Positions 3,442-25,975 of a DNA stretch of 64,000 bases are shown here, in pieces. The translations under genes and the position numbers were made by a program. Numbering within the stretch: the stretch's first letter is position 1; each line of letters starts with the position of its first letter. This DNA comes from Rhizobiales bacterium CCH3-A5. GTDB lineage: Bacteria > Pseudomonadota > Alphaproteobacteria > Rhizobiales > Beijerinckiaceae. Below the pieces are notes generated by a model. The model did no database searches and was not told the origin of the DNA. It saw only the letters and a program-made list of their open reading frames with translations. Location of the stretch: assembly GCA_001556025.1 (NCBI GenBank), contig LSIB01000098.1:59044-123043 (forward strand). The letters run 5' to 3'.

Positions 3442-3447
3442 GTCCGC

Positions 3448-4128
3448 CTAAGCCTTCTCGTTCTCTGTTCGGGCTGCCTTGCGCGCCGCCGCGATGAAGT
3501 CCCCGATCCTGCCGATATCCTTGACGCCGGGCGCGGATTCCACGCCTGACGAGACATCGACGCCGGCCGGCCGCGCGATGGCGATGGCCTCCCTGACGTT
3601 CCCCGGATCGAGCCCGCCCGATAGCATGAAGCGAAAGCTTGGGTCGAGGCTCGCCAGCAGCGACCAGTCGAAGGGCCTGCCATGGCCACCGGGATAGGCG
3701 GCGTCCTTCGGCGGCTTGGCGTCGAGCAGGATCAGGTCGGCGACGCCGCGATAGGGTTCGATCGCGGCGAGGTCGTCCGGGCCGGCTATACCGAGCGCCT
3801 TCATCACGGGAAGACCGGTCGCGGCCTTGATGGCGGCGACCTCGGTCGGCGTCTCGCGACCATGAAGCTGCAGCCAGTCGGGCTTTAACGTCTGCGCCAG
3901 TTCGACGGCCTGCCGCTCGCTCCAGTCCACGATCAGCGCGACGATCTGCGTCCGTCCCCGCGCTTGCGCCACCAGGGCGAGTGCCCGCTCACGCGAGACG
4001 AAGCGCGGGCTCCTTGGATGGAAATTCAGCCCAACCATGTCGGCGCCGGCCGCCAGCGCGGCCTCGAGCGTCTCGCCCGTGGACAAGCCGCAGATCTTCA
4101 CCGCGATACCGGATTTCAACGTCGTCAT
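3448..4128 (-). CDS. trpF: phosphoribosylanthranilate isomerase
   Basis: The protein has 226 residues from the ATG at 4128 (MTTLKSGIAVKICGLST). The reading frame extends upstream to 4221, but the extra residues are basic and unlike the family, so the internal ATG is preferred. TrpF isomerises N-(5-phosphoribosyl)anthranilate in tryptophan synthesis. The catalytic Cys is Cys13 in KICGLS. The AGADMVGLNFHPRSPR segment and the C-terminal phosphate-binding SGGLDPGNV are family hallmarks. It is the first gene of the leftward trpF-trpB unit and diverges from the TAXI protein gene. Confidence 0.94.
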   Translation of the reverse strand: MTTLKSGIAVKICGLSTGETLEAALAAGADMVGLNFHPRSPRFVSRERALALVAQARGRTQIVALIVDWSERQAVELAQTLKPDWLQLHGRETPTEVAAIKAATGLPVMKALGIAGPDDLAAIEPYRGVADLILLDAKPPKDAAYPGGHGRPFDWSLLASLDPSFRFMLSGGLDPGNVREAIAIARPAGVDVSSGVESAPGVKDIGRIGDFIAAARKAARTENEKA

Positions 4129-4239
4129 GGGCGGCCTATAGCATGATCGTGCGCGCCGCCGCACTTGCGACATGATGGCTGTTAAAGCCAAGCTTTGGCG
4201 AACACGGCGCGGCGCGCGCATGCGGGAATCGGTTGGGGC

Positions 4240-5526: not shown

Positions 5527-5678
5527 ACCTTTTTGCCCCGTGCATGACCGCCAAGGTTGCCCAAACGGCCTCCAGCGTCTATGTGCAGCGCAGCGAAATT
5601 CAGATTCCTCACGAACGGGCTGCGCCGGCCGGGTTTTGACCCTGCCGGCTTGTGGCCATGCACAAGGCCTTATCCCGC

Positions 5679-11422: not shown

Positions 11423-12079
11423 TTACGTCCCGGCGGGTCTCGCCATCAGCCCGGAGCCGATCAGCCTCTCATAGGCTGAATAGACATGGTCGGGCACGGC
11501 TTTGGCTCCGCCCTCGCCATAGGCGTAGCGGCGGCTGAGATAGCCGCGCGCGCCCATCAGCACATGGACGATCACCTCCAGCTCTTCGTCGCTGTAGTCG
11601 CCGACCTTGCCCGGCCCGCGCGCCCGCTTGAGCAGGCGGACATAGGCCGTCGAGATGTTGTCGAGATGGCGTTGGTAGCCGGCCGGCGCGAAGACCTCCG
11701 CCTCGTTGAGGATGCGCAGGAATTCCGGCGTCTCCTGCAGGAAATCGAAGAAGGCGCGGAAGCGCGCGACCTCCTTCTCGATCTCGCTGCCCGCCTCGTC
11801 GATCCGCGCGCGGATGAACACGACCATCTGCTGGCCGATGACCGGCAGCAACTGCTCCAGCAGCTCCTGCCGGTTCCCGAAATGGTTGTAGAACGTCCCC
11901 TGCGCCACGCCGGCGATCTCGGTGATGCGCGCGACAGAAGCGTCGGCATAGCCGTGGCGGCCGACGACCTTGGCCGCTGCTGCGAAAAGCCTGCGCTTGA
12001 CGTCGTCGTTCTTCTCGCTGCGCGTCAGCTTGACGGGGCGCTTGAGCGGAGTGGCGGTGGCCGGTCGCGATGGTGACAT
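11423..12079 (-). CDS. TetR-family transcriptional regulator
   Basis: The protein has 218 residues from the ATG at 12079 (MSPSRPATATPLKRP); an ATG at 12100 would add seven. A basic N-terminus leads into the TetR DNA-binding domain: KRRLFAAAAKVVGRHGYADA, then the helix-turn-helix VARITEIAGVAQGTFYNHFG. The C-terminal ligand-binding domain (about residues 70-218) is all-helical. It starts 39 bp after the acyl-CoA ligase stop codon on the same strand and is probably cotranscribed. The likely operator is the palindrome before the ligase gene, repeated before the E1 alpha gene. The effector may be the acyl-CoA product of the pathway. Confidence 0.9.
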   Translation of the reverse strand: MSPSRPATATPLKRPVKLTRSEKNDDVKRRLFAAAAKVVGRHGYADASVARITEIAGVAQGTFYNHFGNRQELLEQLLPVIGQQMVVFIRARIDEAGSEIEKEVARFRAFFDFLQETPEFLRILNEAEVFAPAGYQRHLDNISTAYVRLLKRARGPGKVGDYSDEELEVIVHVLMGARGYLSRRYAYGEGGAKAVPDHVYSAYERLIGSGLMARPAGT

Positions 12080-12118
12080 GATGGTTGGCAGCCTCGGCAT
12101 CTGGGGCGTCTGTCAGAA

Positions 12119-13609
12119 CTAGGACCGCATTTCGTCGCGGAGAACCCGTTTCAGGATCTTTCCCGAGGGATTTCGCGGCAGGCTTTCGCGCAGCACGAGT
12201 TCGCGTGGCGCCTTGAAGGCTGCGAGCTTCGAGCGGCAATGGATTGCGAGCGCGTCCAACGTCAACTCCGCGCCCGGCTCCAGCACGACGAAGGCGACCG
12301 GCTTTTCGCCCCAGCGCGGATCGGGCGCGCCGATGACCGCGACCTCGCGCACCTGCGGCAGTTCGAAGATCACGCGTTCGACCTCGGAGGAGGCGATGTT
12401 CTCGCCGCCGGAGATGATCATGTCCTTCATCCGGTCGGTCAGGAACAGGAAGCCGTCCTCATCAAGATAGCCCATGTCGCCGCTGCGGAACCAGTCGCCA
12501 TGGAAGGCGGCTTGCGTCTTGGCCGGATCGTTCCAGTAGCCGTTGGTGATCTTGGGGCCGCGCAGGCAGATCTCGCCGGTCTCGCCCGCCGGCAGCGGCC
12601 GGCCCGCCTCGTCGCGGATGTCGATCTCGACATGGGCGAGCGCGCGGCCGACCGAGCCGATCTTCTCGATCTCCCGGCCAGCCTCCATCAGCGTGTCGCC
12701 GCTGCAGGTCTCGGTCAGCCCGTAGGCGTCGATGTAGCGGGCCTTCGGGAAGCTCTCGCCGAAGCTGCGGATGCGCGCTTCCGGCGTGCGTTCGCCGCCG
12801 CCGATGACCCAGCGCAGGCTGTTCACGTCGAGCCCGCTCGCGGGCGCGGCCGCCAGCATAGCGCTGGTCATCACCGGGGCGAGCCAGGCGCAGTCGAGCT
12901 TTTCGCGCGCGATCGCTTCCAGGGCGGCCTCGGGCGAAAAATCGCGCAGGATGCAGAGCATGCCGCCGACCCAGAGAACCGCCATGCCGGGCAGATCGAA
13001 CGCGCCGACATGGTAGAGCGGGCCGGCCACGAGCAGGCGGTTTTCTGCCGTCAGCCCCAGCGCCACGACATGGTCGCTGCACTTCCAGTAGAAGTTCTCA
13101 TAAGAGTGCATGACCCCCTTGGGCCGGTCGGTGGTGCCCGAGGTGTACATTAGCCGGAACAGGTCCGATGGCTGGCGCGCGACGCGAGCGGCCGGTACCG
13201 CATCAAGGCCAAGCCGCGTCGAATCCGCCTGCACGGCGGCGTCGAGAAGCACGACATCGGTGGCCAGCGCAGCGGATGCCGCCAGCTCCGCATCGGCGAT
13301 CAGGAGCTTCGCGCCGGCGTCGCCCGTAATGTAGCCGACCTCGTCGGCCGAGAGCCGGAAGTTGATCGGCAGGAAGACGCCGCCGATATGCCCGACCGCG
13401 ATCGCGATCTCGACGAAAGCCGCGCTGTTCTTCATCAGCACGGCGACGACATCGCCTTGTCCAATGCCCCGCGACGCCAGCCAGCCGGCCGTCAGCGCGA
13501 CCCGCCGCGACAGCGCGCCATAGCTGATGCGCTCTGCGCCGAAGACGATGGCGATGCGCTCCGGGGTGCGGCTGGCATGGAAATCGACGAAGCTCGAGAG
13601 ATTGATCAT
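12119..13609 (-). CDS. acyl-CoA synthetase (AMP-forming ligase)
   Basis: A 496-residue ANL-superfamily ligase that would activate a carboxylic acid to its CoA thioester via an acyl-adenylate. The P-loop reads YTSGTTDRPKGV, with Asp where Gly is commonest; related ligases vary here. The motifs YGLTETCSGD, WFRSGDMGYLDEDGFLFLTD and the C-terminal lysine in PRNPSGKILKRVL are present, so both catalytic domains look intact. The substrate is not readable; the neighbouring uptake and beta-oxidation genes suggest a medium or branched acid. The gene runs opposite to the ABC transporter operon and into tetR. Confidence 0.9.
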   Translation of the reverse strand: MINLSSFVDFHASRTPERIAIVFGAERISYGALSRRVALTAGWLASRGIGQGDVVAVLMKNSAAFVEIAIAVGHIGGVFLPINFRLSADEVGYITGDAGAKLLIADAELAASAALATDVVLLDAAVQADSTRLGLDAVPAARVARQPSDLFRLMYTSGTTDRPKGVMHSYENFYWKCSDHVVALGLTAENRLLVAGPLYHVGAFDLPGMAVLWVGGMLCILRDFSPEAALEAIAREKLDCAWLAPVMTSAMLAAAPASGLDVNSLRWVIGGGERTPEARIRSFGESFPKARYIDAYGLTETCSGDTLMEAGREIEKIGSVGRALAHVEIDIRDEAGRPLPAGETGEICLRGPKITNGYWNDPAKTQAAFHGDWFRSGDMGYLDEDGFLFLTDRMKDMIISGGENIASSEVERVIFELPQVREVAVIGAPDPRWGEKPVAFVVLEPGAELTLDALAIHCRSKLAAFKAPRELVLRESLPRNPSGKILKRVLRDEMRS

Positions 13610-13660
13610 TCCGCCCTGCCGCAGCGCCGGGCCCGAAGGCCGTCGCCATATCTTTATGGA

Positions 13661-13677
13661 CTATGACTCATAATTCA
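13661..13677 (-). promoter_or_regulatory. operator-like palindrome, copy 1 (ligase/transporter divergent promoter)
   Basis: On the minus strand this reads TGAATTATGAGTCATAG and contains the perfect inverted repeat TATGA-G-TCATA. It lies 52 bp upstream of the acyl-CoA ligase start, in the 202-bp divergent gap with the substrate-binding protein gene. A copy with 16 of 17 identical bases occurs at 20728-20744. AT-rich sequence flanks it. It is a probable site for the TetR regulator; binding is inferred. Confidence 0.6.
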
Positions 13678-13811
13678 TTTTTTCCTTGACGCAACCTGAC
13701 GGCCCCATGACTATCCCCTCAACAATGCCGGCGGCCAAGACCTCTGGCGCATAAGGCATGCCCGCCGCGACAAGCCGGAGAGGGCAGCTCGGGGAGCCAG
13801 GGAGAAGAGCC

Positions 13812-15086
13812 ATGTCCAAGCCTTCGTCGTCCAAGCCGTCATCATTCGCCATCAACCGCCGTGGCTTCCTTGCCGCCGGCGCGGCCGCCGCCGGGACGGT
13901 TTCGATGCCATGGGTCGCCGGCGCGCAGGCCAGGACGATCAAGGTCGGGTTCCCGACCATCCTGTCGGGCCGCGTCGCGCAACTCGGCACCTCCTCGCGC
14001 AACGCCGCGCAGATGGAGGTCGAGAAGGTCAATGCGGCGGGAGGTCTCGCCGGCCGGCCGATCGAACTCGTGATCCGCGATTCCAAGGGCCAGCCGCAGG
14101 AGGCCGCCCGCGTCGCCCGCGAACTGGTCAACTCCGACGGCTGCGAGATCCTGATCGACGCCGAGGCCTCGACGGGCGCCTTCGCGGTCCACGAGGTTGC
14201 GCGCGATCTGGGCGTGCTCTGCATCCACACCAACTCTGAGACCTCGTCCCTGACGGCCGATCCCAAGCTCAGGCTGCCCAACGCCTTCCGCTGCGCCCGG
14301 CAGGGCATCCATGATTCGGTCGTCGGCGGCAGCTATGCGGCCGAGATCGCCAATGCGCGCAACCTGACGCGCTGGGCGACCTGCTCGCCGGACTACGCCT
14401 ACGGCCGCGACACGACCGCAGAATTCACGATGTATCTCAAGCGCTTCGCCCCCAAGGTCGAGATCATCAGCGAGGGCTGGCCGAAGATTTTCCAGCCCGA
14501 CTACACCGAGACCATCACCAAGCTGCTGCAGGCCAAGCCGCAGGCGCTCTATTCCTGCCTGTGGGGCGGCGACCTGACCTCCTTCATCGACCAGGCCTCG
14601 ATCTACGCGCTGTTCAGCCAGATGCAGTTCTACGCCGTGAACATGGCCGACTACACGGCGCTGACCGTGGTCAAGAACCTGCCGGCGGGCATTCATTCCG
14701 GCAACCGCTACGTCAAGACTTTCCCGGCGACGCCGCAGAACGCCGCCTGGGGCGACGCCTACCGCGCGAAATACGGCGAGTATCCGACCAACTGGGCCTG
14801 GCAAAACGGCGTCGTGATCAACTTCCTCGCCGCCGCCGCCAAGAAGGCCGATTCGGCGGACGGCAAAAAGCTCGCCGACGCGCTGCGCGGCCTGAAGATC
14901 GACTCGCCGCTGGGCGCCGACGGCACCATCACCATGCGCGCCGAGGACCAGACCATCGTCGGCTACGCCATCGGCTGGGGCACGACCATCGCCAAGGAGC
15001 CCTATGTGCCGGAGATGAAGAGCACGCCCTGGCAGCGCATCTTCGAGCTCGAGGCGGAGTGGAAGAAGGACAAGGGCTTCGCCTGA
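13812..15086 (+). CDS. ABC transporter substrate-binding protein, Leu/Ile/Val-type, Tat-exported
   Basis: The protein has 424 residues from the ATG at 13812. The N-terminus has a twin-arginine signal: NRRGFLAAGAAAAG, then cleavage probably after VAGAQA. The mature part is a type I periplasmic binding fold (KVGFPTILSGRVAQLGTSS; GGLAGRPIELVIRDSKGQPQ). It would deliver a ligand to the LivH/LivM permease encoded downstream. Members of this family bind amino acids, amides, aromatic acids or short-chain carboxylates. The adjoining CoA ligase and oxidation genes favour a carboxylate. It is the first gene of the rightward operon. Confidence 0.9.
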   Translation: MSKPSSSKPSSFAINRRGFLAAGAAAAGTVSMPWVAGAQARTIKVGFPTILSGRVAQLGTSSRNAAQMEVEKVNAAGGLAGRPIELVIRDSKGQPQEAARVARELVNSDGCEILIDAEASTGAFAVHEVARDLGVLCIHTNSETSSLTADPKLRLPNAFRCARQGIHDSVVGGSYAAEIANARNLTRWATCSPDYAYGRDTTAEFTMYLKRFAPKVEIISEGWPKIFQPDYTETITKLLQAKPQALYSCLWGGDLTSFIDQASIYALFSQMQFYAVNMADYTALTVVKNLPAGIHSGNRYVKTFPATPQNAAWGDAYRAKYGEYPTNWAWQNGVVINFLAAAAKKADSADGKKLADALRGLKIDSPLGADGTITMRAEDQTIVGYAIGWGTTIAKEPYVPEMKSTPWQRIFELEAEWKKDKGFA

Positions 15087-15187
15087 GCCTGTCTCTCCGG
15101 CGCGCCTGAGGGCGCTGCCGCTCCCCCATCCCGACAAGCCGGGCCGCGCTACGCGCGGCCCGCACGCACCCGGCCGATGAGAGCGCG

Positions 15188-16090
15188 ATGGATATCAACG
15201 CCCTGACGGAATGCCTGTCCTCCGCCTCCTGCATGGTCACGCAGGTGACCAGCGGCTTCATCATCGGGATGCTGCTGTTCCTCGTCGCGGTCGGGCTGAC
15301 GCTGATCTTCGGCGTGATGAAGATCGTCAATTTCACCCATGGCGCCTTCTACATGCTGGGCGCCTATTTCGCGATGACGGTGTTCCAGCTCACCAACAGC
15401 TACGCGCTGGCGCTGCTCGGCGCGGCCGTCGGGGCCTGCGTCATCGGCGTCATCGTCGAACGCTTCTTCATGCAGCGCGTCTATGGCGGCAACGTGTTGA
15501 TGCAGTTGCTGGTCTGCTATGCGCTGGTGCTGATCCTGGACGACCTCGTCCGCATCGTCTGGGGTCCGGAGTTCAAGGCGATGGGCATGCCCGACGCCTT
15601 CCGCGTGCCGCCGCTCTTCATCATGGGCGGCGTGGTGCCGCCCTTCTATCTCTTCCTGATCGCGGCCGCGCTCGCGATGGCGATCATCCTCGGCCTCGCC
15701 ATCGCCCGCACCCGCTTCGGCAAGACGATCCGCGCCGCCGCCCACAACCCGGCCATGGTCTCGGTGCTCGGCATCAACACCGGGCTGCTCTTCACCGGTG
15801 TCTTCGCGCTGGGCTGTCTGCTGGCGGGGCTGGCGGGGGGGCTCGCCGCACCGGTGCGTTCGTTGACGCCCGGCATGGGCTTCTCGATCCTGATCGAGAG
15901 CTTCATCGTCACGGTCATCGGCGGCATGGGCTCGATCCTGGGCGCGCTTGTCGGGGCCGTGCTGCTCGGGCTGATCCGCACCTTCGGCGCGCTGGGCTTC
16001 CCGCTCTTCACCGAGGCGCTGATGTATCTGGCCATGGCGGTCGTGCTGATCGTCAAGCCGAGCGGGCTGTTTGGACGCGAGGCCGCCTGA
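15188..16090 (+). CDS. branched-chain-type ABC transporter permease (LivH family)
   Basis: A 300-residue polytopic membrane protein with about eight hydrophobic segments. LivH hallmarks include ALTLIFGVMKIVNFTHGAFY-like sequence near residues 30-55 and GLAGGLAAPVRSLTPGMGFS around residue 215. It would form the channel with the LivM-type permease. It lies 101 bp after the binding-protein gene and 1 bp before livM, in one operon. Substrate specificity resides in the binding protein. Confidence 0.92.
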   Translation: MDINALTECLSSASCMVTQVTSGFIIGMLLFLVAVGLTLIFGVMKIVNFTHGAFYMLGAYFAMTVFQLTNSYALALLGAAVGACVIGVIVERFFMQRVYGGNVLMQLLVCYALVLILDDLVRIVWGPEFKAMGMPDAFRVPPLFIMGGVVPPFYLFLIAAALAMAIILGLAIARTRFGKTIRAAAHNPAMVSVLGINTGLLFTGVFALGCLLAGLAGGLAAPVRSLTPGMGFSILIESFIVTVIGGMGSILGALVGAVLLGLIRTFGALGFPLFTEALMYLAMAVVLIVKPSGLFGREAA

Positions 16091-16091
16091 G

Positions 16092-17102
16092 ATGATGCGC
16101 CCCGCCTTCCGCGACGCTTTGCTCGGCCTCACCGGCTTTCTGGTTCTCGCGGCGCTGCCGCTGGTTTTCGTCAGCAGCGCGCTGATCGACTTCGTCATCC
16201 GCTGCGCCGCGCTCGGGCTGTTCGCCACCTCGCTTAACCTGCTCGTCGGCTATGGCGGCATGGTCTCCTTCGGCCATGGCCTGTTCTTCGGCATGGGGGC
16301 TTACAGCTTCGGCATCGTCATGCAGCGCACCGGCATGCCGATCCCGCTGGCGATCCTGCTCTCGCTCGGCGTCGCCGCGCTGGTCGCGCTCGTCGTGGGC
16401 GCGATCTGCGTCAGGCTTAAGGAAATCTACTTCGCCTTCGTCACACTGGCCTTCCAGATGCTGGTGCATTCGATGATCATCGCCTGGGTGCCGGTGACCG
16501 GCGGCGACCAGGGCCTGCGGGGCGGCATCCCGCGCCCGCCATTCCTCGGCATCAACCTCGCCGACCAGAAGCAGCTCTATCTGTTTGCTGCCGCGCTGCT
16601 GGTCCTCGGTCTGATCGCCATGCGCCACATCGTCTCCTCGCCCTTCGGCTACACGCTGCGGATGATCCGGGACAACCCGACGCGCGCCGGCTTCCTCGGC
16701 ATCGACGTCTACCGCACGCGGCTGACGGCCTTCGTTCTGGCGGGCATGTTCGCGAGCCTCGGCGGCGTGATCATGAGCCTGTTCGTCTCGGGCGCGTATC
16801 CGGAATTCGCCTTCTGGACGATGTCGGGCGAGGCAGTCTTCATCGTCATGCTCGGCGGCACCGTCGCGTTTCTGGGGCCGATGGTCGGCACGGTGCTGCT
16901 GCTCCTGCTCAACGACTTCGTCACCCGCGTCGCCGAACACCACGGCCTCGTGCTGGGCATCGTCATCCTGATCTTCGCGCTCGGCCTGCGGAAGGGTCTG
17001 CTCGATTTCGTCATGGACTGGATCGAGGCCCGCAGGACGCGGCGCGAGGCAGCCGTACCCGCGCTTTCAGCACAGCCTGCCCCCGAAAGGATCGCGACAT
17101 GA
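16092..17102 (+). CDS. branched-chain-type ABC transporter permease (LivM family)
   Basis: A 336-residue polytopic permease starting at the ATG at 16092, one base after the livH stop codon. LivM features are LLVGYGGMVSFGHGLFFGMG near residue 55, the EAA-type cytoplasmic loop TLRMIRDNPTRAGFLGIDVY near residue 195, and LFVSGAYPEFAFWTMSGEAV. It pairs with the LivH-type subunit. Its end overlaps the following SDR gene by 4 bp (ATGA), showing translational coupling and one transcript. Confidence 0.92.
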   Translation: MMRPAFRDALLGLTGFLVLAALPLVFVSSALIDFVIRCAALGLFATSLNLLVGYGGMVSFGHGLFFGMGAYSFGIVMQRTGMPIPLAILLSLGVAALVALVVGAICVRLKEIYFAFVTLAFQMLVHSMIIAWVPVTGGDQGLRGGIPRPPFLGINLADQKQLYLFAAALLVLGLIAMRHIVSSPFGYTLRMIRDNPTRAGFLGIDVYRTRLTAFVLAGMFASLGGVIMSLFVSGAYPEFAFWTMSGEAVFIVMLGGTVAFLGPMVGTVLLLLLNDFVTRVAEHHGLVLGIVILIFALGLRKGLLDFVMDWIEARRTRREAAVPALSAQPAPERIAT

Positions 17103-17887
17103 GCGAGGCCATGATCGCCGTCGTCACCGGTGGCGCGAGCGGCATCGGCGCGGCCTGCTGCCGCGACCTAGCCAGGCGCGGCTACGAAGTCGTGGTGCTC
17201 GACCGCGACATGGCTCGCGCGCAGGCCGTGGCGGCCGAGATCGGCGGCCATGCGGCGCTGGGCGATGTCGGCGACGAGGCGGGCCTGAAGGACGCCGCCG
17301 CCCGCATCGAGGCCGGCATCGGTCCGGTCGGCATCCTCGTCAACAGCGCCGGCGTGCTGCAGCCGCCGCTGCGGCCGACCGAGCTGCCCATGGCGATCTG
17401 GGACCATGTCGTCCATGTCGACCAGCGCGGCACCTATCTCGCCTGCGTCGTCTTCGGGGCGGCGATGGTCGGCCGCCGCGCGGGCTCGATCGTCAATATC
17501 GCCTCGATCGCCGGCTCGCGCTCCATGGCGCTGCATGCCTATGCGCCGGCCAAAGCCGCGGTGATCTCGATCACGCGCTGTCTTGCCGCCGAATGGGGCC
17601 CGGCCGGAATCCGCGTCAATTCGGTCTCGCCCGGCTTCACCCGCACGCCGGCCTTGCAGGAGGCGATCGACAAGGGCGAGCGCGATGTGACCAACCTCGT
17701 CGGCAGCGTGCCGATGGGCCGGCTGGTCGAGCCCGACGAGATCGCCCGCGTTGTCGGCTTCGTTGCCTCGCCGGAGGCGTCCGCGATCACGGGCGCGGAC
17801 CTGCCCGTCGATTGCGGCTGGATGGCCGGCACCTCCTGGCACACCTATGGCGGCTTCCGCGATCCGGGGAACGGCCCCCATGCTTGA
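17099..17887 (+). CDS. short-chain dehydrogenase/reductase
   Basis: A 262-residue classical SDR. The Rossmann motif is VTGGASGIG near the N-terminus, NSAGV is the structural motif, and the catalytic Tyr and Lys are in HAYAPAKAAV with an upstream Ser. Asp after the second strand (VVLDRD) favours NAD(H). It lies between the permease and ATPase genes of the ABC transporter, overlapping livM by 4 bp and livG by 8 bp, so it is expressed with the transporter. It probably oxidises a hydroxyl group of the imported compound or a downstream hydroxyacyl intermediate. Confidence 0.9.
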   Translation: MSEAMIAVVTGGASGIGAACCRDLARRGYEVVVLDRDMARAQAVAAEIGGHAALGDVGDEAGLKDAAARIEAGIGPVGILVNSAGVLQPPLRPTELPMAIWDHVVHVDQRGTYLACVVFGAAMVGRRAGSIVNIASIAGSRSMALHAYAPAKAAVISITRCLAAEWGPAGIRVNSVSPGFTRTPALQEAIDKGERDVTNLVGSVPMGRLVEPDEIARVVGFVASPEASAITGADLPVDCGWMAGTSWHTYGGFRDPGNGPHA

Positions 17888-18628
17888 GATCGCCAATCTG
17901 GTGAAGGCGTTTGGCGGCGTCCGGGCCACGGACGATGTCACCATGAGCTTCGCGCCCGGCTCGCTGACCGCGATCATCGGCCCCAACGGCGCAGGGAAAA
18001 GCACCTTCTTCAACCTGCTGACCGGCGCGCTGAAGCCCGACAGCGGCGATATCCGGCTCGACGGCCAGTCGCTTGTCGGCTTGAGCATCGGGCAGATCGT
18101 CCGGTGCGGCATCGGACGGGCTTTTCAGGTCGCCAGCATCTTTCCCTCGCTCACCGTCGAAGAGACCATGCTGGCCGCCGTGTCGGCCCATCACGGCCAT
18201 TCCGGCAGGCTCGGCCAGCGCTTCCCGCTGCCGTCCACGCTGGCCCACACCGCCCATTGCATCGAGATGGTCGGATTGACCGCCAAGCGCGCGACGCTCT
18301 CGGCCAATCTCTCCCATGGCGACCAGAAGCTGCTCGACATCGCGCTCGCCCTCGTCCTCGAACCCAAGGTGCTGCTGCTCGACGAGCCGACTGCGGGCAT
18401 GGGGCCGGAAGAGCGCTGGCGTGTGATCGAGAAGGTGCGCGAGCTCTGGGAAACCACGAGGATCACCGTCGTCTTCATCGAGCACGACATGGACATCGTC
18501 TTCCGGATCGCCCCCTCGATCCGCGTGCTGAGCTATGGCCGCGTGCTGGCCGAAGGCACGCCGCAGCAGATCCGCACCAACCCGGCCGTGATCGAGGCCT
18601 ATCTCGGGACCGAGCACGAGGCGGCGGC

Positions 18629-18632
<4 letters not shown>
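17880..18632 (+). CDS. branched-chain-type ABC transporter ATP-binding protein (LivG family)
   Basis: A 250-residue ATPase starting at the ATG at 17880, inside the end of the SDR gene. Walker A is GPNGAGKST, the Q-loop and NLSHGDQKLLDIALAL signature region follow, Walker B is VLLLDEPTAGMG, and the H-loop is FIEHDMDIVF. The LivG-specific extension after the signature is present. The LSHGD signature in place of LSGGQ is usual for this family. It powers import through the LivH/LivM pair together with the LivF-type ATPase encoded next, which it overlaps by 4 bp. Confidence 0.93.
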
Positions 18633-19345
<713 letters not shown>

Positions 19346-19361
19346 TGCACAGGAGAGCGGT

Positions 19362-20720
19362 ATGCCGACCCTGACCCAGGACATCGCCCGCTTCGTCACC
19401 GGGCTCAAGCTCGAGACCATGCCGCGCGAGGTCACCGACAAGGCGCGCGCCTGCCTCGTCAACGCGCTCGGCATGGCGGTGAACGGCTTCGATACGCCCT
19501 ATGCGCCGGTCGCCCGCCGGGCGGCGCTAGCGCTCGACGGCGAGGTTCCCGGCGGCGCGACCCTGTTCGGCGATGGGCGGCGCAGCACCATCGGGGCGGC
19601 CTGTCTCGCCAACAGCGCGCTGTTTCACGGCCGGGCGCAGGAGGACACCTGCGGCGCGGCGCATTTCGGCACGATCCTGATCCCCATGCTGCTCGCCATG
19701 ACGGAAGCGCGCGGCTACCCGCTCGCCCGGCTGATCCCGGCGCTGGTCGCCGGCTACGAGGCCGGCGGCCTGCTGGAAAACGCGTTTGCCGGCGCGACCA
19801 CGCCCAACGGCTTCCGCTCCTCGGCGGTCTATGGCGGCGTCGCTGCGGCCGCCGCCGCCGGCAAAATAATGGGTCTCAGCGAGGCGCAACTGGCGTCTGC
19901 GCTCGCCAACGCGGTCTCTTTCACCGGCGGCGTGCTGCAGCCCTTCGCCGACGGCACCGATGAATGGCGCTATCAGGTCGGAATTGTTGCCCGCAACGGG
20001 CTGGCGGCGGCAGAGCTCGCGGCGGCGGGCTCGGTCTCCGCCCCGCACGCCTTCGAGGGCAAGGCCGGCTTCATTGCCTGCTTCGCCGGGGTCGCGCCGC
20101 CCGCCGACCTGGCGTCCCGGCTCGGCCGCGACTGGTCGATCCTGCGCGTCACCTTCAAGCCCTACCCGGTCTGCGCTTTCAACCAGACGCCGGTGACGGG
20201 CGCGCTCGTGCTGCGCCAGCAGCTTGGAGGTCAGGAGCTTGCCAGCGTGCGCGTGCGCATGAACCCTTATGAGACCGGCTATGCCGGGATGGATGCGGCG
20301 GGTCCGTTCAATTCCATCTCCGGTACGCTGATGAGCATCCCGTTCTGCATCGCGACCACGCTGGTCCACGGCGCGCCCAGCATGCGCCACATGACGACCT
20401 ATGACGACGCGGCGGTGAACGCGCTGGTGGCGAAGACCGAACTCGTGACCGACCCGGAGGTGGCGGTGCTCAGCGCCGTGATCGAGGCGCAAACCACGGC
20501 CGGGATCAAGCATGTTCACTCCCAGAAGATGACGCCGGCCGACTACGCTTTCGACCGCGCGACGCTACGCGAACTCCTGACCCGCACCGGAGCCGAGCAA
20601 GGGCTCGCGCCCGAACTGTTCGACAGGATCGAGCGCGTGGTGGACGCGCTGCCGAACGGCCGCATCCAGGAGATCGTCGATCTCTTCGCCGCGATCGAGC
20701 GGCGCCGGCAGGCGGCGTGA
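19362..20720 (+). CDS. MmgE/PrpD family protein
   Basis: The protein has 452 residues from the ATG at 19362, which has AGGAGA 6-11 bp upstream. The helical N-terminal domain (LTQDIARFVTGLKLETMPRE; CLVNALGMAVNGFDTPYAPV) and the segment FHGRAQEDTCGAAHFG are MmgE/PrpD features. PrpD dehydrates 2-methylcitrate, while other members act on itaconate, iminodisuccinate or unknown acids. The absence of prpB and prpC nearby argues against the methylcitrate cycle. As the last gene of the transporter operon it may hydrate or dehydrate the imported acid. Confidence 0.85.
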   Translation: MPTLTQDIARFVTGLKLETMPREVTDKARACLVNALGMAVNGFDTPYAPVARRAALALDGEVPGGATLFGDGRRSTIGAACLANSALFHGRAQEDTCGAAHFGTILIPMLLAMTEARGYPLARLIPALVAGYEAGGLLENAFAGATTPNGFRSSAVYGGVAAAAAAGKIMGLSEAQLASALANAVSFTGGVLQPFADGTDEWRYQVGIVARNGLAAAELAAAGSVSAPHAFEGKAGFIACFAGVAPPADLASRLGRDWSILRVTFKPYPVCAFNQTPVTGALVLRQQLGGQELASVRVRMNPYETGYAGMDAAGPFNSISGTLMSIPFCIATTLVHGAPSMRHMTTYDDAAVNALVAKTELVTDPEVAVLSAVIEAQTTAGIKHVHSQKMTPADYAFDRATLRELLTRTGAEQGLAPELFDRIERVVDALPNGRIQEIVDLFAAIERRRQAA

Positions 20721-20727
20721 CAAGAAG

Positions 20728-20744
20728 TGAATTATGATTCATAG
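20728..20744 (+). promoter_or_regulatory. operator-like palindrome, copy 2 (upstream of E1 alpha)
   Basis: The sequence TGAATTATGATTCATAG contains TATGA-T-TCATA and differs from the copy at 13661-13677 at one of 17 bases, the centre of the palindrome. It lies in the 65-bp gap between the MmgE/PrpD stop codon and the E1 alpha start, so the dehydrogenase genes probably have their own promoter here. It is likely bound by the same regulator as copy 1. Confidence 0.6.
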
Positions 20745-20785
20745 ATCATATCGTGGCCGTTGCCCGACCGCCGACCGGAAGCTGA

Positions 20786-21790
20786 ATGAGCGACGAGAAT
20801 TCCCCAATCGACGCAGGCCTTGGCCATAACGCAGAGCCCGACCTGCTGGAGCTCTATCGCGGCCTGGTGCTGATCCGGCGCTGCGAGGAGCGGCTGAGCC
20901 AGATGTTCGCCGATGGCGAGGTGCCGGGCTTCATCCATCTCAGCATCGGGCAGGAGGCGGTCTCGGTTGGCGTGATGGCGGCGCTGACCCCCGAGGACAC
21001 CATCGCTTCGACCCATCGGGGCCATGGCCACGCCATCGCCAAGGGGCTCTCGCTCGACGGATTTTTCGCCGAATTGCTGGCGCGCGAGACCGGGTTGTGC
21101 AAGGGGCGCGGCGGCTCGATGCATGTCGCCGACATGTCGGTCGGCATGCTGGGAGCCAACGGCATCGTCGGCGCGGGGCTCTCGATCGCGCTCGGCAGCG
21201 CGCTGGCGCATCGCACGCGGAAGACCGGCGCGATCGCTGTCGCCTTCTTCGGTGACGGGGCGCTGGCCGAGGGGCTGCTGCACGAATGCCTCAACATGGT
21301 GGCTTTGTGGAAGCTGCCGCTGCTCTTCGTCTGCGAGAACAATGGCTGGGGCGAGTTCCTGCCGACTTCGAAGCAACTCTCCTTCGCGCTGAAGGATCTG
21401 GCGGCGGCCTATCGCATCCCGCATCTGTGCATCGACGGAAACGACGTCGCGCTGGTCGCCGACCATGCCGTCCGCATTGTCTCGGAGGTGCGCGGCGAGG
21501 GCCCGCGCATTCTCGAATGCATGACCACGCGGGTGCGCGGCCATTTCGAGGGCGACGCCCAGAAATACCGCGACGCCGACGAACTGGCGGCGCTGAGCGC
21601 GCGCGATCCGCTGCGCATCGCGGCGGGCCACCTCACCGAACTGGGCTTCGACGCGGCAGCGCTGGCGGCAATCGCCGCCGAGGTCGAGGCGCGGATCGAG
21701 GCCTCGGTCGAGGCTGCGCGCGCGGCAGGCGTCCCCGCCTTCGCGGATGCCATGGCCGATGTCTACACGCCGGCCCGGGGAGCCGCCTGA
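20786..21790 (+). CDS. 2-oxo-acid (acetoin/pyruvate-type) dehydrogenase E1 component, alpha subunit
   Basis: A 334-residue thiamine-diphosphate E1 alpha subunit of the short, acetoin/pyruvate type. The TPP motif runs from GDGALAEGLLHECLNM to FVCENN. HLSIGQEAVSVGV and STHRGHGHAIAKG supply the substrate-channel histidines, and CKGRGGSMHVAD is typical of the AcoA/PdhA group. With the beta subunit it decarboxylates a 2-oxo acid or cleaves an acetoin-like ketone and passes the acyl group to E2 lipoate. It overlaps the beta gene by 1 bp and starts a transcript preceded by operator copy 2. Confidence 0.9.
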   Translation: MSDENSPIDAGLGHNAEPDLLELYRGLVLIRRCEERLSQMFADGEVPGFIHLSIGQEAVSVGVMAALTPEDTIASTHRGHGHAIAKGLSLDGFFAELLARETGLCKGRGGSMHVADMSVGMLGANGIVGAGLSIALGSALAHRTRKTGAIAVAFFGDGALAEGLLHECLNMVALWKLPLLFVCENNGWGEFLPTSKQLSFALKDLAAAYRIPHLCIDGNDVALVADHAVRIVSEVRGEGPRILECMTTRVRGHFEGDAQKYRDADELAALSARDPLRIAAGHLTELGFDAAALAAIAAEVEARIEASVEAARAAGVPAFADAMADVYTPARGAA

Positions 21791-22764
21791 TGGCCGAGAT
21801 GCGCTATCTCAAGGCGATCAGCCAGGCGCTGGGCGACGCCATGGCGGCCGATCCGTCGGTCATCCTGATCGGCGAGGATGTCTCCGAGGCCGGCGGCGCG
21901 TTCGGCGCGAGCCGGGGCCTGCGCGAGCGATTCGGGGCGGAGCGCGTGCTCGATACGCCGATCTCCGAAGCCGCGCTGGCGGGCGCGGCGGTCGGAGCGG
22001 CGCTGAGCGGCCTACGGCCCGTCGCCGAGATCATGTTCATGGACTTCACCACGCTCGTCATGGACGCGCTGGTCAACCAGGCCGCCAAGGCGCGCTTCAT
22101 GTTCGGCGGCCAGCGCTCCGTGCCGATGGTGCTGCGCACGCCCCATGGCGGGGGGCTCGGCGCAGGTCCGCAGCATTCGCAATGTCTCGAGGCGTGGTTC
22201 GCCCATGTGCCGGGGCTGAAGGTGGTCTGCCCGTCGGACCCGGCCAGCGCCTATGGCCTGCTGCGCGCGGCGATCGACGATCCCGACCCCGTCGTCTTCG
22301 TCGAGCACAAGGGCCTCTACGCCATGAAAGGCGAGGTGCCCGATACCCTGCCGATTCTTCCGCTCGGCAAGGCGGCGATCCTGCGCGAGGGCCGCGACGT
22401 CACCATCGTCGCCTATGGCGCGGCAGTCCACACGGCCATGACGGCTGCCATCGCGCTCGCAGGCGAGGGCATCGAGGCTGAAATTCTCGACCTGCGCAGC
22501 ATCCAGCCATGGGACGAGCAGGCGGTGCTCGCCTCGCTGGCGAAAACCCATCGCCTCGTCGTGGTGCATGAGGCGGTCGAGGCCTTCGGCGTCGGGGCCG
22601 AGATCGCCGCCCGCATGGCCGATATCGGCTTCGACGAGCTCGACGGGCCGATCCTGCGCGTGGGCGCACCCTTCATGCCGGTGCCGTTCTCCAAGGGGCT
22701 GGAGAGCGCCTATCTGCCCTCGCCCGAACGCGTCGCCGCCGCCGTGCGCCGCACGCTCGCCTGA
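21790..22764 (+). CDS. 2-oxo-acid (acetoin/pyruvate-type) dehydrogenase E1 component, beta subunit
   Basis: A 324-residue E1 beta subunit starting at the ATG at 21790 (TGATG overlap with the alpha gene). ILIGEDVSEAGGAFGASRGL, PISEAALAGAAVGAALSGLR and TPHGGGLGAGPQHSQ are conserved TPP-binding and interface regions. EILDLRSIQPWDEQAVLASL with VHEAVEAFGVGAEIAA forms the C-terminal transketolase-like domain. It pairs with E1 alpha in a heterotetramer. The next gene is an enoyl-CoA hydratase and not E2, which is unusual for this operon type. Confidence 0.92.
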   Translation: MAEMRYLKAISQALGDAMAADPSVILIGEDVSEAGGAFGASRGLRERFGAERVLDTPISEAALAGAAVGAALSGLRPVAEIMFMDFTTLVMDALVNQAAKARFMFGGQRSVPMVLRTPHGGGLGAGPQHSQCLEAWFAHVPGLKVVCPSDPASAYGLLRAAIDDPDPVVFVEHKGLYAMKGEVPDTLPILPLGKAAILREGRDVTIVAYGAAVHTAMTAAIALAGEGIEAEILDLRSIQPWDEQAVLASLAKTHRLVVVHEAVEAFGVGAEIAARMADIGFDELDGPILRVGAPFMPVPFSKGLESAYLPSPERVAAAVRRTLA

Positions 22765-22777
22765 CAGGATGAAACAG

Positions 22778-23590
22778 ATGACAGCGCCATCAGTCACCGC
22801 AACACCATCCTCGGACCCGATCCTCTACGACCGCCGCAACGCGGTCGCCTTGATCACCATCAACCGGTCGACGACGCTGAACGCGCTCGACATGGCGACG
22901 CTGGCCGCGCTCGACGAGGCGGTGGCGCGTGCGGCCGCCGACCCGGACGTCCGCGTTCTCGTCTTCACCGGCGCGGGCGAGCGGGCGTTTGTGGCCGGCG
23001 GCGACATCGCCGATCTCGACAGCCGGCAGGGCCTGCCGCATTACCTCGAACTGGGCGAGCGGCTGCACAGTGTTTTCCGGCGCATCGAGACGCTCGATAA
23101 GCCGACCATCGCCGCCGTCAACGGCTGGGCGCTGGGCGGCGGCACCGAACTCCTGCTCTGCATCGACATCCGCATCGCCGCGCAATCGGCCAGGTTCGGC
23201 CTGCCCGAGATCAATCTCGGCCTGTTTCCCGGCGCAGGCGGCTCGCAGCGGCTGATCCGGCAAATCCCGCTCTGCCGCGCCAAGGAGCTGATGTTTACGG
23301 GCTCGCGCATCGACGCGGAAGAGGCGCAGCGACTCGGACTGATCAACCGCGTCGTGCCCGATACCGAGGTGCTGACGCAGGCGCTGGCGCTGGCCGATAC
23401 GATCGCGACGAAATCCCCGCTGGTGCTCAAGCTGCTCAAGCGCACGCTCAACGACGGCGCCGACATGCCGCTGCCGGCGTCGCTGCGCCACGAGCAGGCG
23501 ATGATTGGCCTCGTGCTCGACACAAAGGACGCCCATGAGGGTTGCCGCGCCTTCCTCGACAAGCGTCAGCCGCAATTCACGGGCGCCTGA
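22778..23590 (+). CDS. enoyl-CoA hydratase/isomerase family protein
   Basis: The protein has 270 residues from the ATG at 22778, with AGGAT at an 8-bp distance; an ATG at 22769 is an alternative start. Crotonase-fold features are AFVAGGDIADLDS (first oxyanion loop), NGWALGGGTELLLCIDIRIA and FGLPEINLGLFPGAGGSQRL, in which Glu of PEINLG is the usual catalytic acid. It would hydrate the enoyl-CoA made by the acyl-CoA dehydrogenase encoded two genes downstream. It sits between E1 beta and E2 with 13- and 4-bp gaps, so it is part of the same transcript. Confidence 0.92.
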   Translation: MTAPSVTATPSSDPILYDRRNAVALITINRSTTLNALDMATLAALDEAVARAAADPDVRVLVFTGAGERAFVAGGDIADLDSRQGLPHYLELGERLHSVFRRIETLDKPTIAAVNGWALGGGTELLLCIDIRIAAQSARFGLPEINLGLFPGAGGSQRLIRQIPLCRAKELMFTGSRIDAEEAQRLGLINRVVPDTEVLTQALALADTIATKSPLVLKLLKRTLNDGADMPLPASLRHEQAMIGLVLDTKDAHEGCRAFLDKRQPQFTGA

Positions 23591-23594
23591 GCCG

Positions 23595-24806
23595 ATGGCC
23601 GCACCCGCCGCGATCGTGATGCCAAAACTCGGTCTGACCATGACCGAGGGGCTGCTCGCCTCCTGGCGGGTCGGGCCAGGCGATCAGGTCGCTGCCGGTG
23701 ACGTGCTCTTCGTGATCGAAACCGAAAAGATCGCGACCGAAATCGAGGCGCAGCATCCCGGCCGCATCGGCGCGATTCTGGTGCCGGAAGGCGAGACAGT
23801 GCCGGTGGGCGCGGCTTTGGCGACATGGGCGGATGGCGGGTCGGCGGGACATGCCCCAGCCTCCGAGGCGGCGCAGACTGCCACTCCTGCGCCTGTTGTC
23901 GAGGAATCACCGCCCCTCGCGTCGCCGGCAACCGGAGGACGCGTCATCGCCACGCCGCTCGCCCGCCGCATCGCGCGGCAGCATGGGCTGGACCTCGCCC
24001 ATGTCGCCGGTTCCGGCCCGCATGGGCGCATCAAGTTCGCCGATGTGCAGGCCGCCATGGCAAGCGCGTCGGCTCCGAAGGGACCGTCAGCCGAAGCCAG
24101 CCGTCGCCGCCCGGCGACGCCGGTCGAACAGGTGGTCGCGCGCCGGCTGACGCAGGCCAAGCAGACCATCCCGCATTTCTACGTCGTGGCCGAGGCGGAT
24201 GTGACACAGCTTCTGGCGATGCGGGCCGAGTTGAACGCCGCTGCGGGTCCGCTGCGGCTCAGCATCACTCATATCGTCATGGCCGCCGTCGGCCGGGCGC
24301 TCACTGCCCAGCCCGAATTCAACGCGGTCTGGGACGAGGGCGAGATCGTCACCCTGCCCGGCAGCGATGTCGGGCTCGCGGTCGACAGCCCGCGCGGCCT
24401 TGTCGTGCCTGTGCTGCGCGATGCCGGCGCGGGCCATCTCGACGCGGTCGCCGCGGCCTGCGCGGCCCTGATCGACCGGGCGCGGGCGGGCCGGCTGGTC
24501 GCCGGGGATTTCGAGGGCGGCGCGATCAGCGTCTCCAATGTCGGGATGTTCGGCGCGTCGCATCTGGTGCCGATCATCAATCCCGGCCAGTCCGCGATTC
24601 TGGGCGTCGCGGCCGTCAAGCCGGTGTTCAGGCCCGATGCGCAAGGGCGGCCTGACCTGCGGCAGGAACTCGGCCTCGTGCTCTCCTGCGACCATCGCGT
24701 GCTGGACGGCGTGCGGGCGGCCACGTTCCTCGACGCCGTCGTCAGGACGCTCGAACACCCGCTGCTGCTGTTGCGCCAGCCGGCGGCAAGAAGGACAGGA
24801 CCATGA
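23595..24806 (+). CDS. 2-oxo-acid dehydrogenase E2 component (dihydrolipoamide acyltransferase)
   Basis: The protein has 403 residues from the ATG at 23595. An N-terminal lipoyl domain (MPKLGLTMTEG) carries the lipoyl lysine in FVIETEKIATEIEA. An Ala/Pro-rich linker and a peripheral-subunit-binding domain at about residues 115-150 (ATPLARRIARQHGLDLAHVA) follow. The catalytic domain ends in SCDHRVLDGVRAATFLD, with the active-site His and Asp. It transfers the acyl group to CoA. No E3 gene is in the window, so a shared dihydrolipoyl dehydrogenase is probably used. It overlaps the acyl-CoA dehydrogenase start by 4 bp. Confidence 0.92.
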   Translation: MAAPAAIVMPKLGLTMTEGLLASWRVGPGDQVAAGDVLFVIETEKIATEIEAQHPGRIGAILVPEGETVPVGAALATWADGGSAGHAPASEAAQTATPAPVVEESPPLASPATGGRVIATPLARRIARQHGLDLAHVAGSGPHGRIKFADVQAAMASASAPKGPSAEASRRRPATPVEQVVARRLTQAKQTIPHFYVVAEADVTQLLAMRAELNAAAGPLRLSITHIVMAAVGRALTAQPEFNAVWDEGEIVTLPGSDVGLAVDSPRGLVVPVLRDAGAGHLDAVAAACAALIDRARAGRLVAGDFEGGAISVSNVGMFGASHLVPIINPGQSAILGVAAVKPVFRPDAQGRPDLRQELGLVLSCDHRVLDGVRAATFLDAVVRTLEHPLLLLRQPAARRTGP

Positions 24807-25975
24807 ATTTCGACCGCAGCGACGAACAGGTGATGCTGGCCGACACCGCCAGGCGCGTCGGCGAAAAATTCGGCCTCGACTACTGGCGCGATCTCGACGC
24901 CCGCAAGGAATATCCGGCCGCGATCTGGCAGGCGATCTGCGATGCGGGGCTCGCCGGCATCGCGATACCCGAGGAGTATGGCGGGGCAGGCCTCGGTATG
25001 GCCGAGGTCGCGATCGCGATCGAGGCCTTGTGCGCGGCCGGCGGCGGCTCGACGCTCAGCCAGATGTTCATGTGCAACCCCATTTTCGGGGGCGTCACCC
25101 TCTGCCATTTCGGCACTGAGGCCATGAAGCGGGAGCTGTTGCCCGCATTGGTCGCGGGCAAGGCCACCTTCGCCATGGCGCTGACCGAGCCGGACGCCGG
25201 CACCAACACGCTGGCGCTGAAGACCTTTGCGCGGGTCGACGGCAATGGCTGGCGGCTCAACGGCCAGAAGATCTGGATCACCGCCGTGCCGCAGGCGACC
25301 AAGATCCTGATCGTCGCGCGCACCCGCAAGCTCGACGAGGTTCAGCGCAAGACCGACGGCATCAGCCTGTTCCTGATCGATGTCGACCGCGCCGGGCTCT
25401 CCCATCAGGCGATCGAGAAGGTCGGCACCAATACGCTGCCCTCAAGCTCGGTCTTTCTGGAGGATGTCCGGGTCGAGGGGCACGAACTCGTCGGCACGCT
25501 CGATGGCGGCTTCCGCGAACTGCTCGATGTGCTCAACACCGAACGCATCGTCACGACATCCGGCCTCGTCGCCACGGCCGAACTCGCGATCAGGCTGGCC
25601 GTCGACTACGCCCGCGAGCGAAAAATCTTCAACAATGCGCCGATCGGCTCCTATCAGGGCATCCAGTTTCCGCTGGCCGAAGCGCAGATCCAGCTCGAAT
25701 GCGCCAGGCTGATGAACCAGAAGGCCGCCGCCCTCTACGATCAGGGCAAGCCCTATGGCTCGGAGGCCAATATGGCCAAATATCTCGCCGGCCATGCGGC
25801 GGGGCTCGCCACGGACCGCGCCATCCAGACGCTCGGCGGCATGGGCTATTCGAAGGAATACCATGTCGAGCGGCTCTGGCGCGATGCGCGGCTGTTTCGG
25901 GTCGCGCCCGTCTCGGAGGAGATGATCCTGAACTATGTCGCCCAGCACGATCTCGGCCTGCCGCGCTCCTACTGA
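24803..25975 (+). CDS. acyl-CoA dehydrogenase
   Basis: A 390-residue FAD-dependent acyl-CoA dehydrogenase. The first flavin-binding stretch is FAMALTEPDAGTNTLALKTF and the second is WITAVPQATKILIVAR. The C-terminal QTLGGMGYSKEYHVERLWRD is the family signature, and APVSEEMI replaces the common EGTNEI. It would introduce the alpha-beta double bond into the CoA ester made by the ligase, feeding the enoyl-CoA hydratase. The start at 24803 overlaps the E2 stop (ATGA). It is the last gene of the dehydrogenase operon and converges with the chemoreceptor. Confidence 0.93.
   Translation: MNFDRSDEQVMLADTARRVGEKFGLDYWRDLDARKEYPAAIWQAICDAGLAGIAIPEEYGGAGLGMAEVAIAIEALCAAGGGSTLSQMFMCNPIFGGVTLCHFGTEAMKRELLPALVAGKATFAMALTEPDAGTNTLALKTFARVDGNGWRLNGQKIWITAVPQATKILIVARTRKLDEVQRKTDGISLFLIDVDRAGLSHQAIEKVGTNTLPSSSVFLEDVRVEGHELVGTLDGGFRELLDVLNTERIVTTSGLVATAELAIRLAVDYARERKIFNNAPIGSYQGIQFPLAEAQIQLECARLMNQKAAALYDQGKPYGSEANMAKYLAGHAAGLATDRAIQTLGGMGYSKEYHVERLWRDARLFRVAPVSEEMILNYVAQHDLGLPRSY

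Follow-up and report, generated by a model that had tools for sequence, protein, structure and literature searches.

Positions 11423–25975 of a 64,000-nucleotide stretch of the Rhizobiales bacterium CCH3-A5 genome (contig LSIB01000098.1, positions 59,044 to 123,043 of the forward strand; the whole stretch is referred to below as the window) hold fourteen genes which, under a shared switch, probably import and degrade an organic acid. The genes of a TetR-family regulator and an acyl-CoA ligase lie on the minus strand, divergent from a plus-strand series composed of a Liv-type importer operon, an MmgE/PrpD-family gene, and the genes for E1α, E1β, an enoyl-CoA hydratase (ECH), E2, and an acyl-CoA dehydrogenase (ACAD). 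The nearest named relatives of this region are members of Bosea. The features of the unit are as follows.

11423–12100, minus strand: TetR-family regulator (PF00440, 47.8 bits)
12119–13609, minus strand: AMP-forming acyl-CoA ligase (PF00501 and PF13193)
13657–13677, no strand assigned: operator-like 21-bp palindrome at the divergent ligase/binding-protein promoter (pattern scan)
13812–15086, plus strand: Liv-type (Peripla_BP_6) substrate-binding protein (SBP), with an RRGFL twin-arginine-like signal
15188–16090, plus strand: Liv-type permease 1 (PF02653)
16092–17102, plus strand: Liv-type permease 2 (PF02653)
17099–17887, plus strand: short-chain dehydrogenase/reductase (SDR) inside the importer operon (PF13561)
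17880–18632, plus strand: importer ATPase 1, LivG type (PF00005 and PF12399)
18629–19345, plus strand: importer ATPase 2, LivF type (PF00005)
19362–20720, plus strand: MmgE/PrpD-family enzyme (MmgE/PrpD superfamily fold)
20728–20748, no strand assigned: operator-like 21-bp palindrome before the E1 operon (pattern scan)
20786–21790, plus strand: E1α, of acetoin dehydrogenase type by motif (PF00676; motifs and tree)
21790–22764, plus strand: E1β (PF02779 and PF02780)
22769–23590, plus strand: ECH, between the E1β and E2 genes (PF00378)
23595–24806, plus strand: E2 acyltransferase with lipoyl, E3-binding, and catalytic domains (PF00364, PF02817, PF00198)
24803–25975, plus strand: ACAD (PF00441, PF02770, PF02771)

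The original prediction, made from the sequence of the window, had named these genes in this order and on these strands, which the reading frames and Pfam scans bear out. ATG starts were refined for the SBP (13812), permease 2 (16092), the two importer ATPases (17880 and 18629), MmgE/PrpD (19362), E1β (21790), ECH (22769), and E2 (23595), in each case with the frame open to the stop; an alternative SBP start at 13758 is likewise open. From 19362 the MmgE/PrpD protein has 452 amino acids, matching the length of most of its closest relatives, and a start at 19311 merely lengthens it. The Liv-type importer is complete, with the SBP, two permeases, and two ATPases. Pfam scans of the fourteen proteins revealed neither E3 nor a thiolase, a carboxylase, a mutase, or any second acetoin- or methylcitrate-pathway enzyme.

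Conservation of the gene set and its operator-like palindrome

The set recurs across Proteobacteria. Counts below refer to 80 loci, the best 80 of 111 MmgE relatives confirmed by genome scan (L and G numbers denote loci and genomes); some of them end at contig edges, their open reading frames (ORFs) were called with a custom codon-score script, and genes were counted by our own identity thresholds. E1α is present in 49 of these loci, E1β and ECH in 46 each, E2 and ACAD in 40 each, the ligase in 45, SDR in 43, TetR in 41, and the binding protein in 30, while 34 loci hold all six of E1α, E1β, ECH, E2, ACAD, and the ligase. E3 appears in relatives as protein cluster c15 (10 loci), the one scanned member of which belongs to the pyridine nucleotide-disulphide oxidoreductase family. 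Altogether, genes of the dehydrogenase half accompany MmgE in 53 of the 80 loci (E1α, E1β, or ECH in 51, and ACAD in two more, L042 and L074). For the other 27 loci, 26 genomes were searched for E1β, and 16 of them carry a copy of 67–80% identity elsewhere, all remaining E1β copies in the 26 genomes having at most 58% identity; L027, outside this search, shares a bin with L017, which has E1α. As a baseline, among 249 genomes from the order to which Bosea sp. CRIB-10 belongs, E1β and MmgE orthologs of this kind were found in three each, and both together in two (the centre genome included), and this co-occurrence therefore binds the dehydrogenase half and MmgE together far beyond chance.

When the dehydrogenase half is scored as present on the basis of E1α, E1β, or ECH, 27 loci have both halves, 24 only the dehydrogenase half, 12 only the importer (including L042 and L074, which do hold ACAD), and 17 neither. 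The original prediction had raised independence of the two halves in relatives as a check, and the answer is divided: MmgE with E1, ECH, E2, ACAD, and the ligase is a stable set, whereas the Liv-type importer is an exchangeable part. Plasmid-borne copies occur in Shinella HZN7 (pShin-09, typed as conjugative, with electron-transfer flavoprotein genes alongside and the ligase found only as two tblastn pieces), in Rhizobium ACO-34A, and, without this importer, in Azospirillum.

Upstream of each half of the unit stands an imperfect 21-bp palindrome, TGAATTATGANTCATAATTCA, one copy (TGGACTATGACTCATAATTCA, 13657–13677) lying at the ligase/importer promoter and the other (TGAATTATGATTCATAGATCA, 20728–20748) 37 bp before the E1α start codon. 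Its core, TGAATTATGANTCATA, matched with up to three mismatches, occurs four times in the window (two sites, each on both strands) against 0.24 expected, and none of 100 dinucleotide-preserving shuffles reaches four matches, in agreement with the operator-like sequence originally predicted before both halves. The TetR protein is presumed to bind this palindrome. Across 81 sequences, 70 operator matches were found versus 0.6 in shuffles that permuted dinucleotide blocks and were thus not exactly dinucleotide-preserving. At a threshold of 15 of 20 positions, 61 separate sites were detected in 38 of the 80 loci, none of them lying deeper than 60 bp within a predicted ORF, although coding sequence makes up about 89% of the total; at a distance of up to 400 bp, sites precede E1α in 21 loci, the SBP gene in 20, and the ligase gene in 12. 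A whole-genome scan of 36 module-bearing assemblies, picked for holding MmgE loci, revealed a site with at most two mismatches in 31 genomes (all except G010, G016, G023, G031, and G035), and the reversed pattern used as a control had no match in any of the 36.

The operator is conserved, and where the genes are scattered it accompanies them. It stands ahead of E1 operons away from MmgE in Bradyrhizobium (L137, about 14 kb from MmgE) and in Roseovarius and Thalassovita (L145, L146, and L190), and Azospirillum and Polaromonas (L053, L058, L063, and L147) have it before another, different importer of the Liv type. In a Burkholderiales bin (L151) it precedes an operon encoding an old yellow enzyme (OYE), EthD, E1, ECH, E2, ACAD, and ligase; its distance to the called start of OYE is about 630 bp, this start probably being placed too late. 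A weaker site precedes an OYE-EthD-E1 operon in L189, and in Thalassobaculum (L056) the site lies 39 bp before a Baeyer–Villiger-type monooxygenase gene. Of 15 regions that were fetched, eight have genes of the module or of the sister regulon described below at the site (L137, L138, L141, L145, L146, L147, L150, and L151), L144 has an EthD gene there, and L139, L140, and L148 contain no site reaching 15/20. In L145 and L146 sites also precede a gene for the binding protein of a tripartite ATP-independent periplasmic (TRAP) transporter and an ACAD pair. Altogether, these data show a real, conserved, operator-linked catabolic regulon, as anticipated by the earlier claim of one co-regulated catabolic unit.

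In L149 (Roseovarius amoyensis, 1246–7039), an operator-like site (17/20) lies before two ACAD genes, a FadB-type gene, and a thiolase gene; this β-oxidation set is a possible extra member of the regulon.

The dehydrogenase complex and the other enzymes

On the phylogenetic tree, the module E1α sequences form a single clade of their own (48 rows including the window, support 100/100). The motif STHRGHGH is exact in 29 of the 48, carries one change in 18 and two changes in one, and GH[FY]EGD is found in all 48 (GHFEGD in 30, GHYEGD in 18). We take these motifs to mark acetoin-type enzymes: both are present in all three references treated as AcoA-type (the plasmid references L084, L085, and L089, of which L085 and L089 adjoin 2,3-butanediol genes), while three annotated PdhA proteins have YRDHGH or YREHGH in two cases and TTHRGHAV in one (L092), and GH[FY]EGD in none. 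The nearest PDB chain to E1α is human pyruvate dehydrogenase (PDH) E1α (167.6 bits), other PDH E1α chains scoring 72–74 bits; E1β scores 282.9 bits against PDH β and 212.7–234.6 bits against 2-oxoisovalerate dehydrogenase β. No acetoin E1 is among the PDB matches listed for either subunit. The domains of E2 are arranged as in PDH-type E2, and among near-full-length cluster members, the window's included, the lipoyl-type Lys is kept in 34 of 34 and the His of the catalytic motif in 33 of 34.

Outside the module clade, ACAD-E1α-E1β-E2 occurs in Rhodococcus jostii RHA1 (plasmid pRHL3, L094) and ACAD-E1α-E1β-ECH in Sphingobium TomTYG42 (L095); these suggest that the grouping of ACAD with E1 recurs beyond the clade, both sequences standing on long branches of unsure placement. 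In L086, L090, and L091, a separate group on plasmids, E1α-E1β-E2 follows an oxidoreductase gene whose annotation reads NAD(P)H-dependent oxidoreductase or homoserine dehydrogenase; the Sinorhizobium meliloti member additionally has lpdA and lipA.

The signature residues of the other enzymes were counted over members with at least 80% of the length of the window protein. In the SDR cluster, 52 of 52 members keep Ser and Tyr-x-x-x-Lys; with the BudC model, whose cut-off is 270, the window SDR reaches 157.3 bits. Both signature Glu residues of ECH are present in 44 of 44. ACAD has the Glu of LNxER in 40 of 40 and Ala-Pro, again in 40 of 40, at what we take to be the place of the Glu-Gly of medium-chain acyl-CoA dehydrogenase; on the presumed meaning of this base, the catalytic base is apparently of isovaleryl-CoA dehydrogenase type. 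Since the signature residues are intact and conserved in relatives, the enzyme genes of the unit are not decaying. The ligase reaches 845.5 bits against NF004797, slightly below the cut-off of 850, its best PDB chains being named feruloyl-CoA synthetase and fatty-acyl-CoA synthase, and for the SBP the PDB search yielded distant chains only, 3i45 being the best.

The MmgE/PrpD protein is far from PrpD proper (24.6 bits against a cut-off of 575, and 20.4 bits against 950). In a profile alignment with cis-aconitate decarboxylase, a His of the catalytic region and the Lys of KxxP are retained, whereas another aligned His is replaced by Arg and the His of KxxPxH by Cys, and the Lys-bearing loop is gapped, MmgE having TDEWRYQ there. 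In 76 of 76 relatives no change was seen at the Arg, at E-W-R and Q in the loop, at the Lys, or at the Cys. The positions that bind carboxylates in cis-aconitate decarboxylase thus appear to be replaced, given residue roles that are presumed or, without alignment to its protein, transferred from PMC12290011.

A proposed route for a 4-oxo acid and its alternatives

Gene content, residues, co-occurrence, and the operator-like site are computed; beyond them we infer the class of substrate, the order of steps, the products, the MmgE reaction, and the binding of TetR. Our tentative choice, somewhat short of an even chance, is that a 4-oxo (gamma-keto) acid, or close precursors of one, are taken up and degraded by means of one TetR-type regulon. 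The Liv-type importer would take up the acid, and MmgE/PrpD would use enolate chemistry to adjust it in its free form, most likely by epimerisation at a substituted carbon. The ligase would then form a 4-oxoacyl-CoA, ACAD a 4-oxo-2-enoyl-CoA, and ECH would hydrate the latter to 3-hydroxy-4-oxoacyl-CoA, R-CO-CH(OH)-CH2-CO-SCoA, which is an acyloin; SDR may oxidise this acyloin to a 3,4-diketone. Finally, the acetoin-type E1/E2 complex, with E3 supplied from elsewhere, would cut between C3 and C4, giving R-CO-CoA and malonic-semialdehyde-CoA (or malonyl-CoA).

Since the unit combines a ligase, ACAD, and a hydratase with no thiolase, a 4-oxo acid would be the simplest acid whose processed form is an acyloin. 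Conversely, the absence of a thiolase and the position of the ECH gene between those for E1β and E2 would be accounted for in the proposal because an acetoin-type complex would cleave the hydrated acyloin. The original prediction had assigned a 2-oxo-acid or acetoin-type dehydrogenase to a breakdown product of the acid; the E1α motifs, which are not those typical of PDH, suggest the acetoin type, and the complex is now proposed to cleave a carbon–carbon bond in a 4-oxoacyl-CoA pathway rather than to oxidise a 2-oxo acid.

Further indications come from two Bradyrhizobium genomes (L138 in G005 and L141 in G034) with a sister regulon, in which the same operator, a ligase, TetR, the importer, an SDR, and a monooxygenase gene occur together and other downstream genes replace MmgE and E1. 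The sister ligase is 77–78% identical to that of L008, and the sister binding protein 91% identical to those of L009 and L011. Downstream in L141 are a class III CoA transferase, ECH, an Ich-like hydratase (142 bits, cut-off 340), and a Ccl-like lyase (173.6 bits, cut-off 375), the last two both below threshold; the L138 ORFs correspond to those of L141 in order and length. The monooxygenase of 640 amino acids carries FxGxxxHxxxW, which we take to be the Baeyer–Villiger fingerprint, and its likeness to 4-hydroxyacetophenone monooxygenase is assumed by length only. As similar entry steps can feed either a thiamine pyrophosphate (TPP) complex or a CitE-type lyase, E1/E2 is favoured as the cleaving step.

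None of the known systems that were compared describes the whole unit. According to PMC12290011 and PMC9875883, the itaconate/methylsuccinate clusters (P. aeruginosa PA0878–PA0883; C. necator) combine an MmgE/PrpD isomerase, CoA activation, ACAD, a hydratase, and a carbon–carbon lyase, a logic that the proposed route shares. The unit differs by having a ligase for the CoA transferase, a crotonase-type ECH, TPP-dependent E1/E2 for the CitE-type lyase, a Liv-type importer, and apparently altered MmgE residues. Pfam scans found no CoA transferase, MaoC-type hydratase, or CitE-type lyase among the fourteen proteins, which rejects this cluster as a full description; relatives of the itaconate-type transferase, hydratase, and lyase do occur in the sister regulon. 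The aco operon shares the E1α motifs and the E1α-E1β-E2 genes, but the E1α of the unit has a clade of its own, the ligase, ACAD, ECH, and MmgE are added, and acoX, acoR, and butanediol dehydrogenase are absent from the fourteen Pfam-assigned proteins. The 2-methylcitrate (prp) cycle has in common with the unit an MmgE/PrpD-fold protein, and was rejected on the PrpD score given above and the lack of any further prp-type gene in 11423–25975. The mismatch with the acetoin and methylcitrate pathways claimed originally, including the lack of carboxylase and mutase genes, thus holds among the fourteen proteins. In the levulinate (lva) pathway a CoA ligase likewise acts on a 4-oxo acid, whose keto group is then reduced and phosphorylated; the unit has ACAD, ECH, and a TPP complex instead. 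An acetoin-type complex also belongs to a resorcinol/hydroxybenzoquinone pathway, on which a search of open-access literature brought up no paper. Searches of that literature, judged by titles and the beginnings of abstracts and with subscription papers outside their scope, brought up no description of the gene set, in line with the claim that the combination is undescribed, and yielded no Azospirillum fitness data.

Several observations weigh against the 4-oxo acid regulon. Ten of the 26 searched genomes, several of them metagenome-assembled, have no E1β copy above 53% identity. No operator site of 15/20 was found in 42 of the 80 loci, the module loci of Mesorhizobium (L061) and Achromobacter (L073) have none, and of nine β-proteobacterial E1 regions seven are without a site of at least 15/20. 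In most of these nine regions additional ACAD, ECH, or SCP-x-type thiolase genes lie close by, which allows other chemistry. Two fetched sites have no module gene, aminotransferase and FAA-hydrolase-type genes lying at L142, and EF-G-type and hydroxyacid-dehydrogenase-type genes at L143. STHRGHGH occurs without GH[FY]EGD in three E1α of another group (L086, L090, and L091), and because this group has the first motif only, the E1 motifs are suggestive and no proof. The best PDB chain for E1β, 1um9 (291.4 bits), is a 2-oxo acid dehydrogenase β subunit, which partly contradicts an acetoin-type assignment. The proposal gives SDR no forced role, and the sister regulon could equally indicate a branched dicarboxylate.

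Such a dicarboxylate would fit an alternative that we consider unlikely, in which an alkyl- or arylsuccinate is epimerised by MmgE/PrpD, activated by the ligase, and converted by ACAD and ECH into a product resembling citramalyl-CoA; a 2-oxo acid set free at a later point would then be oxidised by E1/E2. According to PMC12290011 and PMC9875883, 1,4-dicarboxylates are the substrates of known MmgE/PrpD members, one of which is a methylsuccinate isomerase encoded with a CoA transferase, ACAD, hydratase, and lyase. The Ccl-like and Ich-like proteins of L141, both below cut-off, point the same way, as do MaoC-type proteins and relatives of CoA-transferase III that some of the 80 loci have close to MmgE. 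However, when the proteins predicted for the window and the 80 loci were compared by BLAST with the sister hydratase and lyase, none matched at 1e-10, and the step freeing the 2-oxo acid is therefore not seen there; the apparently replaced MmgE residues at the carboxylate-binding positions of cis-aconitate decarboxylase and the acetoin-type E1α motifs also disagree with a succinate.

Branched-chain amino acid catabolism proceeds through E1/E2, ACAD, and ECH in this order, and one could accordingly place the 2-oxo acid first, with MmgE-catalysed dehydration yielding it, E1/E2 forming an acyl-CoA for ACAD and ECH, and the ligase acting on a side product. The seemingly isovaleryl-type base of ACAD and the top PDB chain of E1β agree with this improbable scheme, but the E1α motifs are acetoin-type, E1α scores 84–91 bits against 2-oxoisovalerate E1α chains versus the 167.6 bits against the human PDH subunit and the 72–74 bits against other PDH E1α chains, and the ligase, which such a route does not need, has orthologs in 45 of the 80 loci.

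Lower still in probability is the cleavage by E1/E2 of a cyclic 1,2-diketone or ring acyloin from a terpenoid or alicyclic ketone, the module being the lower part of that pathway. Baeyer–Villiger-type monooxygenases, OYE, SDRs, iron-type alcohol dehydrogenases, and EthD do adjoin the module in several lineages, some of them with an operator; SDR aside, however, none of these is part of the unit, none is constant across loci, and they could equally supply a 4-oxo acid. Chance adjacency of independent importer/ligase and E1 units, to which the loci with one half only (24 and 12) might point, is strongly disfavoured and was rejected on the shared operator, the genome-level co-occurrence, and the replacement importers that also bear operators.

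The 4-oxo acid regulon, if true, would mean a new route of carbon degradation, a new use of acetoin-type dehydrogenase complexes, and a function for an MmgE/PrpD group, and the operator-like site would allow other members of the regulon to be located genome by genome. The reading in its full novelty, that is, a widely distributed 4-oxo acid route with the acyloin cut by a dedicated, lipoate-dependent acetoin-type complex instead of a thiolase, a new class of MmgE/PrpD epimerases acting on the free acid, and a sister route with a CitE-type lyase, we regard as doubtful. Even with another acid as substrate, the generic labels '2-methylcitrate dehydratase PrpD' and 'pyruvate/acetoin dehydrogenase alpha subunit' carried by relatives would become one testable unit.

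Neighbouring genes and further loci

A second conserved MmgE neighbourhood (protein clusters c21, c25, c22, c20, c23, and c14) was found in L035, L040, L043, L044, L050, and others; one member of each cluster was scanned, giving two ACADs, a thiolase-like protein, and three proteins with no Pfam match at 1e-8. In L079, a BPD_transp_2 permease fused to a strictosidine-synthase/SMP-30-like domain (14022–16127) is part of an ATP-binding cassette importer adjoining MmgE; this fused permease cluster (c48) also occurs in L019, L072, and L080, and a 15/20 operator-like site lies 157 bp before the gene of permease c29 of the same L079 importer.

On the opposite strand, a methyl-accepting chemotaxis gene (25999–27324) ends 23 bp from the ACAD gene and begins the next unit; an ORF of equal length and strand occupies this position in L001, and the chemoreceptor could sense the same acid. 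A few kb downstream of the catabolic unit are dnaN-type (28533–29648) and dnaA-type (29802–31355) genes, and the unit may therefore sit near a replication origin.

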